Both the position numbers and the translations under genes were made by a program. DNA of 56,841 nucleotides from a virus. Position 1 is the first letter of the stretch. Every line of letters starts with the position of its first letter. The notes beneath the pieces are model-generated. The model ran no database searches. It was given only the letters and a program-made list of their open reading frames with translations, and was not told the origin of the DNA. Where the stretch lies: IMG/VR virus record IMGVR_UViG_3300046455_000283, positions 1 to 56,841 of that record. One strand, written 5' to 3'. Of this stretch, positions 17,692 to 28,610 are shown one piece after another.

Positions 17692-17865
17692 TTAAACTTC
17701 GTTCTCGTCATCATTTCCCCTGGACATGGGCGTTATGTGACGCGTAATTTTGCTCCTTTCTGGTCGGTGTTCATCGGGGCCCTCGCACTCGCCGTCACCC
17801 TGGCGGCACAGAGGGGATGCCGTCCCTCCGGTGCAGAGGACCCCGATGAAGACCGAAGTCTTCAT
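17692..17865 (-). CDS. 57-aa hypothetical protein
   Basis: An ATG overlapping the preceding stop as ATGA, with GAGGA just upstream. The product begins with a hydrophobic stretch, has three Cys, and ends in acidic residues. An overlapping rightward frame is also open but has no ribosome site. Moderate support only. Confidence 0.45.
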   Translation of the reverse strand: MKTSVFIGVLCTGGTASPLCRQGDGECEGPDEHRPERSKITRHITPMSRGNDDENEV

Positions 17866-18170
17866 TCTTCCTCCAAATCGAAGATGTACTCTCCTAAGAG
17901 ATCCTCTTCTTCCTGGATAGCTTCGAGCCCGATCTCTTCGTCGTCAACGACGTCGGCACCAGGGCCTTCAGCTTCTGTCATGCGGGGGACGTTCCAGTTC
18001 TCGAACTGCTTCCTGAAGCGGTCGATCTCCTTCTTCGTACCCTTGAATGCCCAGCGTTTGCCTTGGCCGGGTTGTTCCCCCTTCGGGGTGATTGATCGCA
18101 TGAACTTACGGAACGTTCGTGCGTCGGTACCTAACTCCCGTGCCATCTCTTTGGCACTCATTGCTGGCAT
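17862..18170 (-). CDS. Small HTH-like regulator, paralogue 1
   Basis: A 102-residue protein of the family seen again at 25338 and 26735. N-terminal 'SAKEMARELGTDARTFRKFMRSI' looks like a helix-turn-helix, then 'PGQGKRWAFKG' and a helix with FRKQFENW. The C-terminus is very acidic. Family members are probably DNA-binding regulators. ATG preceded by GAGGAG. Confidence 0.65.
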   Translation of the reverse strand: MPAMSAKEMARELGTDARTFRKFMRSITPKGEQPGQGKRWAFKGTKKEIDRFRKQFENWNVPRMTEAEGPGADVVDDEEIGLEAIQEEEDLLGEYIFDLEEE

Positions 18171-19902: not shown

Positions 19903-20348
19903 TTTGGGAGATCCTCCTTTCTATGTCCGCAGACGGTGCATCGTGGTTCCCAGGCGGTGCACCTTCTAACAATGTGATGCCTGGAGAATAGGGCCATCAG
20001 TGTGGGACGGCGGCAGTATGCGCACCAGAGATGGCCAGGATGTTGTCCGGGTACTCCCGGGAAATACCGCTCACGTCGCCCATTCCTGCGAACGACAGGC
20101 GGTGCGAAGGGGATCACCTTCGATTGAAGAGCCGCGTCATCCCACTCATGCAGGTGCCTGCGTAATATTTTGAGGCCCTTCTCGTACGTCTTGAACTCCT
20201 TCTTGTACCAGCTGCCCCCTGACAAAATGACTAACCGCCAAGGTCGTTCGATGTATGTGGTGGCTGGGATGCTAGGCACCTTGCTCATCCACTTCTCAAA
20301 GACAGGGTTAGCCTCTAGCAGCTCGGTGAGAGTTATTTGTTCGGTCAT
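19896..20348 (-). CDS. Zinc-binding protein, first leftward early gene
   Basis: A 150-residue protein; the C-terminal third has CAYC, 'HHIVRRC' and CTVCGH, an HNH- or zinc-ribbon-like metal site. I cannot find a full HNH catalytic triad. ATG lies exactly 6 nt after a -10 with no ribosome site, so the mRNA should be leaderless. Confidence 0.65.
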   Translation of the reverse strand: MTEQITLTELLEANPVFEKWMSKVPSIPATTYIERPWRLVILSGGSWYKKEFKTYEKGLKILRRHLHEWDDAALQSKVIPFAPPVVRRNGRRERYFPGVPGQHPGHLWCAYCRRPTLMALFSRHHIVRRCTAWEPRCTVCGHRKEDLPKW

Positions 20349-25215: not shown

Positions 25216-25231
25216 TGTGACCCGAGTCACA
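25216..25231. promoter_or_regulatory. CRP-like palindrome
   Basis: TGTGACCCGAGTCACA fits the CRP-family consensus TGTGA-N6-TCACA and is a 6-4-6 palindrome. Its centre is about 67 bp upstream of the predicted start of the next transcript, within the range where CRP activates. A phage regulator could bind it instead. Confidence 0.65.
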
Positions 25232-25255: not shown

Positions 25256-25284
25256 TTGACTTGGGTTTCCGGTTCAGATAAAAT
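25256..25284 (+). promoter_or_regulatory. Promoter of paralogue 2
   Basis: TTGACT, 17 nt, TAAAAT; a leader of about 47 nt ends in AAAAGGATGC before ATG. Confidence 0.7.
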
Positions 25285-25337: not shown

Positions 25338-25646
25338 ATGAAGACGCTCACCCCCAAGGAGATTGCAGTCGATTTCGGAACAGATCCGAAAACGCTGCGG
25401 AAGTTCCTCCGTTCGATCACGCCGGTCGATGACCGCCCCGGGAAGGGATCGCGCTGGTCGATTCCCGGCAACGCGAAGAACTTGAAGAGTCTGCGGACGC
25501 AGTTCGATGCTTGGGAGATCAAGCGCAAGGAAGACGCCGCACGACGCGCCGAGGAAGCTGCCGCACAGGCTGCGACCGACGAGGTCGAGGACGACGCCAC
25601 CGAGGTCACCACCGACGAGGTCAACGAAGACACCGTCGAGGCCTGA
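25338..25646 (+). CDS. Small HTH-like regulator, paralogue 2
   Basis: A 102-residue protein: 'TPKEIAVDFGTDPKTLRKFLRS' (HTH-like), 'PGKGSRWSIPG', 'LKSLRTQFDAW', then an Ala/Glu helix and acidic tail. Same length and layout as the protein at 17862 and the core of 26735. Monocistronic with its own promoter, CRP-like site and terminator, so it may be a separately controlled regulator or nucleoid-type protein. Confidence 0.65.
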   Translation: MKTLTPKEIAVDFGTDPKTLRKFLRSITPVDDRPGKGSRWSIPGNAKNLKSLRTQFDAWEIKRKEDAARRAEEAAAQAATDEVEDDATEVTTDEVNEDTVEA

Positions 25647-25896: not shown

Positions 25897-25925
25897 TTGA
25901 CATAGGTTGCGAGGTGTGGTAGAAT
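25897..25925 (+). promoter_or_regulatory. Leaderless promoter of the 32-aa gene
   Basis: TTGACA, 17 nt, TAGAAT, 6 nt, ATG. No ribosome site. The preceding 200 bases (25690-25896) contain no supported gene. Confidence 0.75.
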
Positions 25926-25931
25926 ACAGGC

Positions 25932-26030
25932 ATGCTTACCAAGGATAACCTACCGCTCCTCATCCTCGCCATCGCGTTGAGTCTCCTCGTGGTGTTCTCC
26001 GCGCTGACCAACTACGGCGCTCCGCACTAA
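25932..26030 (+). CDS. 32-aa leaderless membrane peptide
   Basis: A tiny frame placed exactly where a leaderless mRNA would start. Residues 7-25 ('LPLLILAIALSLLVVFSAL') form one membrane segment; the ends are short and polar. It could act on the host membrane or be a small toxin-like or lysis-related peptide; no family is recognisable at this size. Confidence 0.55.
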   Translation: MLTKDNLPLLILAIALSLLVVFSALTNYGAPH

Positions 26031-26148: not shown

Positions 26149-26261
26149 TGTCCGATTTGTCCGGGGAACGGAGTCGATTGTCCGCTTTCTGACGAAATGT
26201 CCGATTTGTCCGAGTCGCTCCAAAATGTCCGATTTCTGTGTGACACACACGCATTTGTCCG
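26149..26261 (+). repeat. Array of TGTCCG words
   Basis: Seven TGTCCG copies in 113 bp, most inside (A/T)TGTCCGATTT, with two more close variants just downstream. The 318 bases from 26031 to 26348 hold no supported gene. Such spaced words usually mark binding sites of one protein, for example an origin or repressor array. Confidence 0.55.
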
Positions 26262-26348
26262 ATTTGCGGATTGGTGGTGGCGAATTGTCCCGACACGTCC
26301 GAATTGCCCCCGTAGGGGCGAATTCGGGGTCGATGGGCGATTTAGGCG

Positions 26349-26618
26349 TTATGCATGGATTTGATCGTCAATGCAGATTCGATAATCGCATCGGTGAATT
26401 GGGCAAATTTCGTAATTGAGGCAGAGATCGGCGATTTGCGCAGCATCGCAGGTTTTGAGCAATTTGAGCAATTCGGCGTATTCGGGCAATTGATCGGATT
26501 CGGGTGCATCGAGCATTTCGAGCAGTTCGAGCATTTCGAGCGGATCATTCGTTTCGAGCGATTCGGCAAAAATGCGATGGATTTGGGTGATTTGGGGTGA
26601 TTGCATCGTTTGATTCAT
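26349..26618 (-). CDS. Leaderless leftward gene in the G-restricted block
   Basis: An 89-residue acidic helical protein with Leu/Glu-rich repeats ('ESLETNDPLEMLELLEMLD', 'PEYAELLKLLK') and Cys in the last third. It contains no Gly, Val or Trp. ATG lies 6 nt after TATGAT with no ribosome site. Divergent from the regulator at 26735 and sharing its control region. Function unknown; a partner or antagonist of that regulator is a guess. Confidence 0.6.
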   Translation of the reverse strand: MNQTMQSPQITQIHRIFAESLETNDPLEMLELLEMLDAPESDQLPEYAELLKLLKTCDAAQIADLCLNYEICPIHRCDYRICIDDQIHA

Positions 26619-26624
26619 GCATGA

Positions 26625-26653
26625 ATCATATCATGCGGGGGGCGATTATGCAA
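26625..26653 (-). promoter_or_regulatory. Left half of symmetric divergent promoter
   Basis: On the minus strand: TTGCAT, 17 nt, TATGAT, 6 nt, ATG. Element for element the mirror of the rightward promoter. Confidence 0.75.
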
Positions 26654-26668
26654 TGCCGCAAAAGGGAT

Positions 26669-26684
26669 TGTGACATGGGTCACA
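26669..26684. promoter_or_regulatory. CRP-like palindrome at the exact centre of the divergent promoters
   Basis: TGTGACATGGGTCACA, again TGTGA-N6-TCACA and sharing TGTGAC-N4-GTCACA with the site at 25216. Its midpoint (26676.5) is the midpoint between the two divergent ATGs, so it lies 58.5 bp from each predicted start. One dimer could control both genes equally. Confidence 0.75.
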
Positions 26685-26699
26685 GTCCGATTTATCCCC

Positions 26700-26728
26700 T
26701 TGCATGATTCGATCATGCATGGTATGAT
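26700..26728 (+). promoter_or_regulatory. Right half of symmetric divergent promoter
   Basis: TTGCAT, 17 nt, TATGAT, 6 nt, ATG. Confidence 0.75.
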
Positions 26729-26734
26729 GCATGC

Positions 26735-27079
26735 ATGATCATTTCGGGGAATTCGCAATCGCGCATTTCGCATGATCATGGAATTCGGGCAAATCGCCCA
26801 ATTCGCTCAATCACGAAGGATGATGCCGTTATCGCTCAATCACGCACGCCGAAGGATATTGCGCTCGAATGGGGCACCGACGCAAAAACGCTCAGGAAAT
26901 TCTTGCGCAAGGATATTAAGGATAAAGGCCTCGAATCGCCCGGAAAGGGGCAACGCTGGGCAATTGATGCGCGATCGCTCAAATCCTTGCAAAAGCGATT
27001 TGACGCATGGAATGCGGCAAAAGCGATCAAAACTGATGATTCGCCCGAAACGATCGAATCGACCGAATCACCCGAATAA
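26735..27079 (+). CDS. HTH-like regulator, paralogue 3 (leaderless)
   Basis: A 114-residue protein. From residue ~38 it matches its paralogues ('TPKDIALEWGTDAKTLRKFLRK', 'PGKGQRWAIDA', 'LKSLQKRFDAW'). The first ~36 residues are not shared and include a segment (K-D-D-A-V-I) encoded where the paralogue at 25338 has its ribosome site and start, so the extension looks like a translated former leader. Only one Val codon and few Gly: even this constrained gene shows reduced GT. Probable local regulator. Confidence 0.65.
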   Translation: MIISGNSQSRISHDHGIRANRPIRSITKDDAVIAQSRTPKDIALEWGTDAKTLRKFLRKDIKDKGLESPGKGQRWAIDARSLKSLQKRFDAWNAAKAIKTDDSPETIESTESPE

Positions 27080-27116: not shown

Positions 27117-27619
27117 CAGGTGGAATCACGAGAAAATCGGACAATTGCGTGCGACCTCCGCAAAGCCGACGGAAACGGGCAACTGCTCCCAACTCCGACG
27201 GAATCGCTCAAAGCCGACGAAATCGCCCAAACGCTCTCAAGTCCGACGAAATCGGACAAAGCCACAAACGCCCGCTCAAATCGGACATTGCGTGGAGAAG
27301 GTGCACAAGGCCGACGAAATCGACGCAAGGCCGCCCAAAGCGGACAACTTGCCAACCAAACGAACAATTCGGACAAGTCACCAACCAAACGCACAATTCG
27401 GGCAACTGCGGACCACCTCGCCCAACCTTCCCAACCTGCCCTCCTACCGACCAAATGGGATCCTCACGCACAAGGCTGGACAATTCGGACATGCGGGTCG
27501 AGGGCAAGCACTTTGTCGTGCCTTGTCCGAATTCGTCGTGAGGTGGCGAAATGTCCCTTTTGTCCGAGTCGCACGCAATTGTGCGTGAGGAGGCATTATG
27601 CGGAATTCGATGAAATACC
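27117..27619 (+). repeat. Spacer with degenerate 19-bp tandem repeats and TCGGACA words
   Basis: From 27160 to 27276 a unit like CAANKCCGACGRAATCGSN recurs with 19-bp steps (27190, 27209, 27238, 27257). Scattered TCGGACA words (reverse complement of the TGTCCGA in the array upstream) follow, and TGTCCGAGTCGC recurs near 27560 as near 26207. Several overlapping frames are open through here because stop triplets are rare, but none has a promoter or ribosome site that sets it apart. I call no gene. Confidence 0.5.
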
Positions 27620-27648
27620 TTGACTTCGCCCACCTCGCATGATATGAT
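27620..27648 (+). promoter_or_regulatory. Leaderless promoter of the first G-restricted rightward gene
   Basis: TTGACT, 17 nt, TATGAT, 6 nt, ATG. Confidence 0.75.
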
Positions 27649-27654
27649 GCATGC

Positions 27655-28050
27655 ATGACCTCAACCGATGCGCCTTTCATCCTGCAAATCACCCAAATCC
27701 CTGCAATTGATACCCTCCTCACCGCAATCAAACCTAATCGCCCCTCATTCGCCCTTGACGCCTACATTTCCACATGCCGCCTATATGACATCGACCCCTT
27801 CGATGCCGCCGACCTTGACGACAATCCCCATATCATCCGCGCACGCAATTCGCTCTTTTCCCTCGACCATACCGAATATGCTCCTTACGACTATTATACC
27901 GATTCCTGCCTCGACGAATTGACCTTAATCCTCGATTGCGACCGATACTCCGACAACGATGAATTCGCCCTCCAACACCGAATCATCGAATTCTGCTACG
28001 ATTCGAACGATTACGACCTTGCCGATCAATTGACCTCCTTAATCCCCTAA
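27655..28050 (+). CDS. 131-aa protein lacking Gly, Val and Trp
   Basis: An acidic protein, rich in Asp, Leu, Tyr and Ser, with one Lys and no internal Met. The gene has no GG, AG or GT dinucleotide, including across codon boundaries. It is leaderless and coupled (TAATG) to the next small gene. The regular 'DxxDLxD'-type helices suggest a folded helical protein. No family recognised. Confidence 0.6.
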   Translation: MTSTDAPFILQITQIPAIDTLLTAIKPNRPSFALDAYISTCRLYDIDPFDAADLDDNPHIIRARNSLFSLDHTEYAPYDYYTDSCLDELTLILDCDRYSDNDEFALQHRIIEFCYDSNDYDLADQLTSLIP

Positions 28051-28245: not shown

Positions 28246-28274
28246 TTGACCTCGATGACCTCGCATGATATGAT
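28246..28274 (+). promoter_or_regulatory. Leaderless promoter of the membrane-anchored gene
   Basis: TTGACC, 17 nt, TATGAT, 6 nt, ATG. Confidence 0.75.
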
Positions 28275-28280
28275 CATGCC

Positions 28281-28610
28281 ATGACCTATTCACCCCGCAC
28301 CATAATCGCCCTATTCGCCATCACCTGCCTGACCATCCTCACCATGACCTCAATGATCCTCAATCGCCCTACCTCGCACCATGCGCACCATGCACCCACA
28401 TCGCCCATATCCTCACATTGCGCTGAAGATGCCCTTGCCCTGACAATTCACCCATCACGCACATATGCCTGCATACCTGCCGATGACTTCGCCCCCAATA
28501 CCCGCCTTGCCTTCGCCTCTGCCTCAATCCTCCGCTTTTGCCCGACCCACACCGCCCAAATCACCATCGACTCCGATGATGCCGAAATCCTGACCAATTG
28601 CTCACGCTGA
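28281..28610 (+). CDS. Membrane-anchored 109-aa protein, no Gly, Val, Trp or Lys
   Basis: Residues 8-27 form one membrane segment ('IIALFAITCLTILTMTSMIL'); the rest is polar with a His-rich stretch and Cys residues that could form disulphides outside the cell. The gene has no GG or GT and a single AG. A surface protein exposed after infection, for example for exclusion, is one option; no homologue is recognised. Confidence 0.55.
   Translation: MTYSPRTIIALFAITCLTILTMTSMILNRPTSHHAHHAPTSPISSHCAEDALALTIHPSRTYACIPADDFAPNTRLAFASASILRFCPTHTAQITIDSDDAEILTNCSR

Follow-up and report, generated by a model that had tools for sequence, protein, structure and literature searches.

In the 56.8-kb virus record from IMG/VR that we analyzed (its whole length of 56,841 nucleotides is called the window here), two open frames diverge from a mirror-symmetric promoter pair with a perfect CRP/GlxR-type palindrome at its exact centre. 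Judging from this layout, we lean towards the reading that these are two leaderless actinophage genes which would be co-regulated by a single host Crp/GlxR-type dimer bound midway between them.

The virus encodes a WhiB protein (Pfam E=2.7e-16), and its major capsid protein is 46-49% identical to those of the best-listed Microbacterium and Arthrobacter phages, and other relatives of this capsid protein occur in phages of Mycobacterium and Gordonia. These features identify the virus as an actinobacteriophage. Its close relatives, with 88% capsid identity, are fragments that do not cover the divergent promoter. No similarity to cultured phages was found at the DNA level, a search for relatives of the primase/helicase protein gave none useful, and a non-exhaustive profile scan of roughly 30 proteins found neither an integrase nor a repressor of a temperate phage. 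Below about 20 kb lie replication genes that read leftward, and small genes with promoters of their own occupy the 25-29 kb region.

On the + strand, TTGCAT is followed by 17 nt, TATGAT, GCATGC and ATG 26735, and the - strand has the same order, TTGCAT, 17 nt, TATGAT, TCATGC and ATG 26618 (Table 1). The initial annotation had described both sides as TTGCAT-17-TATGAT-6-ATG with the palindrome midway between the two start codons, and a direct reading bears this out base for base: the centre of TGTGACATGGGTCACA equals (26618+26735)/2 and each ATG is 58.5 bp away. The site lies 15 bp outside each -35 box and overlaps neither promoter.

Table 1. Coordinates of the mirror-symmetric element and of related features in the window.
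Feature	Position	Strand	Remark
Third paralogous MerR-like HTH gene	17862-18170	-	Without palindrome upstream
Second perfect palindrome, TGTGACCCGAGTCACA	25216..25231	.	Upstream of promoter 25256
TTGACT-17-TAAAAT promoter of 102-aa HTH gene	25256..25284	+	Gene has Shine-Dalgarno
102-aa paralogous HTH protein, phrog_21603	25338..25646	+	
Sibling leaderless-type cassette TTGACA-17-TAGAAT-ACAGGC-ATG	25897..25934	+	ATG 25932
89-aa open frame, acidic, Leu-rich	26349..26618	-	Probable gene, without relatives
Whole mirror-symmetric element	26616..26737	.	122 bp; listed as inverted repeat
Leftward promoter, -10 TATGAT	26625..26630	-	ATG 6 nt on
Leftward promoter, -35-like TTGCAT	26648..26653	-	
TGTGACATGGGTCACA, perfect CRP/GlxR-type palindrome (predicted site)	26669..26684	.	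Centre 26676.5
Rightward promoter, -35-like TTGCAT	26700..26705	+	3/6 to TTGACA
Rightward promoter, -10 TATGAT	26723..26728	+	ATG 6 nt on; extended -10 TGG precedes
114-aa MerR-like HTH protein, phrog_21603	26735..27079	+	Predicted leaderless start
Sibling leaderless-type cassette TTGACT-17-TATGAT-GCATGC-ATG	27620..27657	+	Without palindrome
Sibling leaderless-type cassette TTGACC-17-TATGAT-CATGCC-ATG	28246..28283	+	Without palindrome

Mirror identity was scored at all window positions as a control. Here 41 of the 61 pairs are mirrored, against a window mean of 15.1 (sd 3.5) and a next best value of 32, and when the central 16 bp are left out 35/53 pairs are mirrored, against a maximum of 29 elsewhere in the window. 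The symmetric element is real and non-random. By element, the identity is 6/6 for the -35 box, 6/6 for the -10 box, 8/9 for the six bases plus ATG and 6/8 for the half-site, whereas the 17-nt spacers are mirrored at 8/17 positions (mostly GCATG ahead of the -10) and the stretch from the palindrome to the -35 at 7/15. Since the match is carried by the elements while the spacers have drifted, selection on the elements is suggested rather than a recent inverted copy. By simple arithmetic on the space available from one -35 box to the other, the exact centring alone would occur about once in 31.

With six bases between the -10 and the ATG, the expected transcription start is the A of the ATG or a neighbouring base. 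A Shine-Dalgarno sequence is missing before ATGs 26735, 26618, 27655 and 28281 and is present in most other genes that were checked, and ATG 26735 is the sole start codon of its open frame ahead of the conserved HTH domain. Three features, the distance of six bases from -10 to ATG, the missing Shine-Dalgarno sequences and the lack of an alternative start in the HTH frame, lead us to infer that the divergent genes are probably leaderless. The initial annotation had given the six-base distance but had missed both the leaderless starts and three further copies of the promoter cassette. The copies at 27655 and 28281 fit CCTTGAC(T/C)-17-TATGAT-6-ATG; in the one with ATG 25932 the -10 spacing fits and a weak AGGTG is present. 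The -35 box is TTGCAT in both promoters that flank the palindrome and TTGACT, TTGACC or TTGACA in the sibling cassettes, which have no palindrome. Outside this region, at 20348 (-), there is another leaderless-looking gene with TTGACA-17-TAGCAT-6-ATG. A motif different from the central palindrome, CATGCATG, is repeated at the starts: all four of its window copies (1.2 expected) lie within 1 kb, at 26616, 26714, 26730 and 27650, and the three that overlap leaderless start codons could mark a +1 operator.

The HTH-like regulator on the right, as it had been annotated, proved to be a family-supported gene. The 114-aa protein matches the phrog_21603 profile over residues 40-103 (E=1.6e-11), with the conserved columns visible in the alignment, and the domain in its AlphaFold model (residues 36-101) has a pLDDT of about 90. 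The left partner had been annotated as an 89-aa gene, and here only part of the claim stood: the frame opens at exactly the mirrored ATG 26618 and stays open for 89 codons, but its coding score is weak (0.03, against 0.11-0.18 for the opposite strand) and no relatives of the protein were detectable in PHROGs or Pfam. Whether the frame is a real gene is thus uncertain. A suspected paralogy of the 89-aa protein with a 131-aa protein was dropped since the similarity is not significant. The sequence between 26400 and 26560 has a 9-nt period (TTCGAGCAA-like) and is open on both strands.

Repeats of another kind surround this region. Ten of the 18 window copies of the 7-mer TTGTCCG / CGGACAA lie within 26150-26300 and 27130-27570 and they are inverted around the promoter, with mainly TTGTCCG on the left, beyond the 89-aa frame, and CGGACAA on the right, beyond the HTH gene. 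Two other loci (L005 and L086) have comparable repeats, GGACAA or GTCCGATTTGTCCC, close to HTH genes. Such an array may be a binding array for the HTH protein, an origin or a centromere.

The palindrome itself is rare by chance. TGTGAC-N4-GTCACA occurs twice in the window against 0.005 expected under a first-order Markov model (P(>=2) about 1e-5), and the two copies precede two paralogous HTH genes, one each. The earlier account was incomplete in this respect, as the second perfect copy, TGTGACCCGAGTCACA, ahead of the 102-aa HTH gene had been missed. Its centre is about 9 bp, nearly a full helical turn, farther from its -10 than that of TGTGACATGGGTCACA, and it likewise lies upstream of the -35 of its promoter; this promoter has a good -35 and so adds no support for activator dependence. 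A terminator reading of the palindrome was rejected as weak, such sites being fewer than the shuffle expectation.

Another question is which protein would bind this sequence. In 79 actinobacterial genomes (about 0.33 Gb in total, the sum of the listed sizes) the palindrome has 48 matches against 0 for the reversed control, and therefore some widespread actinobacterial protein uses it; its density in the phage is roughly 250-fold above that in these genomes. No Crp-type HTH (PF13545) was found in the phage, so that the ligand would come from the host. The known protein of this kind is Crp/GlxR. The M. tuberculosis member of the family (Rv3676) binds TGTGA-N6-TCACA-like palindromes, its sites are concentrated from -60 to -40 relative to mapped transcription start sites, and one, at sucC in a divergent region, lies at exactly -58.5 (PMC4117774). 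Both earlier proposals on this point are upheld: the palindrome at the centre of the promoter pair is a perfect match to the TGTGA-N6-TCACA consensus, and a host factor is a likely candidate, with a host Crp/GlxR-type dimer as the likeliest ligand.

What finds no support is the regulatory logic of the initial annotation, which saw a finely balanced switch between the two genes. One symmetric site outside both promoters predicts joint movement instead: a single equidistant site presents equal geometry to both sides, therefore co-regulation in equal dose and no toggle would be expected. Overlapping operators of the CI/Cro type were not seen at the palindrome, which is single and 15 bp outside both -35 boxes. 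Activation is favoured because the site overlaps neither promoter and both -35 boxes are weak (TTGCAT, 3/6). The classical class I position of CRP in E. coli is -61.5. If the genes are leaderless, the palindrome stands at -58.5, which is 3 bp off that position and equal to the one at M. tuberculosis sucC. In a mechanism that fits these data, a host Crp/GlxR-type (cAMP receptor) dimer would occupy the palindrome, centred at -58.5 on both sides, and RNA polymerase would begin transcription at or adjacent to each ATG, six bases downstream of the TATGAT box. The bound dimer may recruit the polymerase to either promoter and so make up for the weak TTGCAT boxes; the expression of both genes would then follow the cAMP level and metabolic state of the host in parallel, in a class I-like co-activation, and through TGTGACCCGAGTCACA the paralogous HTH gene might answer to this cAMP signal too.

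One other option is that the phage regulates itself, with the MerR-like HTH proteins (114 aa and 102 aa) binding the palindrome and so controlling the genes that encode them as well as the 89-aa gene, and the likeness to a CRP site being incidental. HTH paralogs do follow both phage palindromes, and the predicted domain weakly resembles RacA, a palindrome-binding MerR-like protein (5i44, prob 0.92 but E 0.21), and the DNA-binding domain of pSK1 Par. However, TGTGAC-N4-GTCACA was found within 800 bp upstream of the HTH relatives in 0/20 viral loci (IMG/VR), and the palindrome was accordingly rejected as a conserved operator of the HTH family. Conservation of the spacing in relatives, which had been proposed as a check, was looked for and does not hold, because the relatives have no palindrome. 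The third paralog of the phage also has none upstream, an HTH of the phrog_21603 family is absent from 10/11 viral records in which the palindrome is combined with a leaderless -10, and the enrichment across actinobacterial genomes likewise speaks against a ligand made by the phage; we regard self-regulation as unlikely. It is less probable still that the host Crp/GlxR dimer at the centre acts as a repressor and keeps both promoters down until cAMP falls. There is a precedent in phage T1, whose regulator promoter pir is repressed by the cAMP-CRP of its host (PMC6737242), yet a site 15 bp upstream of both -35 boxes occludes neither of them, and weak -35 boxes are what is expected of activated promoters.

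The remaining alternatives concern the symmetry. If only the rightward HTH gene were real, the left half would be an inverted copy of the cassette that has since drifted, and the 89-aa frame would be silent; the recurrence of the cassette elsewhere in the phage, the coding score below that of the opposite strand and the lack of relatives all agree with this. But the -35, the -10 and the start are unchanged on both sides in spite of the spacer drift, which suggests function on both sides, and an open frame of 89 codons begins exactly at the mirrored ATG, so that we hold this to be very improbable. The inverted repeat could also be a structural element (a cruciform, an origin or a partition site) and no promoter pair. 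This would agree with the single-strand DNA fold (z = -4.8), with the flanking TTGTCCG/CGGACAA arrays in their inverted arrangement and with the resemblance of the HTH fold to partition and anchoring proteins. The fold energy, however, is explained by the mirror symmetry itself, and this symmetry coincides with the promoter elements and the start codons but leaves out the spacers; there is hardly any likelihood left for a purely structural role.

The layout was also looked for in other viral and actinobacterial records, using loci fetched by pattern that gave 75 distinct palindromes with at least one leaderless side. In 3/75 (the viral contigs L057 and L066, and L137) the other side is leaderless at an equal distance to within 1 bp, against 0.14 expected, and in 5/75 to within 10 bp, against 0.9 expected; one of the five (L026) looks like chance; the control used random positions although palindromes prefer intergenic regions, and these counts are indicative only. 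In the clearest analogue, L057 (IMG/VR 3300021560_000321), TACGAT-GTATGC-ATG flanks TGTGACGTACGTCACA on both sides, at distances of 53.5/54.5 bp from palindrome to start and in a strongly mirror-like form. Its diverged relative L023 (IMG/VR 3300036791_000264) has the same gene pair and has kept the palindrome, at 64.5/54.5 bp. In both, the palindrome is at or near the middle of divergent leaderless-type -10-N6/7-ATG pairs, as in our phage, but the gene pair is unrelated and no phrog_21603 HTH was detected in these records. The pair (L057:12815-14586) is an ATPase-like gene, GHKL/rIIA-like by eye, that diverges from a 180-aa protein; a search for relatives of the 181-aa protein of L057 gave none useful. 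In Glycomyces paridis (NZ_STGX01000009, L137) a perfect palindrome lies 55.5/56.5 bp from divergent leaderless-type starts, between genes for an XRE-type and a MerR-type regulator (by eye) and probably within a mobile element; unlike the phage case it is chromosomal and its promoter halves are unlike in sequence. In a strict search for the palindrome plus a leaderless -10, 394 actinobacterial genomes yielded only the Glycomyces element that had seeded the search, so this is no standard host layout, and two scans aimed at divergent -10s on either side of the palindrome gave no symmetric leaderless pair beyond L057. In a broad IMG/VR scan for the palindrome plus a leaderless -10, two apparent spacing peaks, at gap 33 (18 matches) and gap 48 (15), were discarded as mostly homologous unrelated families. 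Viral contigs with a GC content of about 60% (L025, L027, L053, L069 and L071) form a family that carries TGTGACCTGCGTCACA 44.5 bp before TACGAT-6-ATG, and the beginning of the downstream gene is conserved; this is another candidate Crp-controlled leaderless phage gene. That actinobacteriophages and related mobile elements repeatedly evolve a mirror-symmetric module of this kind, with a host-Crp site exactly midway between two leaderless divergent promoters that couples a pair of phage control genes equally to host cAMP, seems unlikely.

Divergent control from a single CRP site is already known from E. coli, where 11 natural cases are listed and model promoters were built by El-Robh and Busby 2002 (as cited in PMC3105977). 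The likeness is one CRP target between divergent promoters, able to act on both; what is new is the symmetric leaderless actinophage version, in that the phage element is strictly symmetric, both its genes appear leaderless and its CRP site is predicted. The M. tuberculosis Rv0950c-sucC region (PMC4117774) is close to it in the TGTGA-N6-TCACA type, the actinobacterial class, the start distance of -58.5 (if the phage genes are leaderless) and the divergent arrangement, whereas the sites of M. tuberculosis CRP (Rv3676) belong to chromosomal genes with mapped start sites and asymmetric distances. For a phage that reads host cAMP, our limited literature search found only pir of the E. coli phage T1 (PMC6737242). 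There too a phage regulatory gene is under a host metabolic sensor, but by repression, while the geometry of the actinophage pair suggests divergent activation.

If our reading is true, an actinophage would set its own regulators by the cAMP of its host. The element would also be a compact natural test object, with equal activation geometry on both sides and no 5' UTR, in which one could measure directly, in an actinobacterium, how a single Crp dimer acts on two equal promoters. The palindrome is easy to mutate and the prediction is sharp: the two genes would be co-regulated, with no toggle between them.
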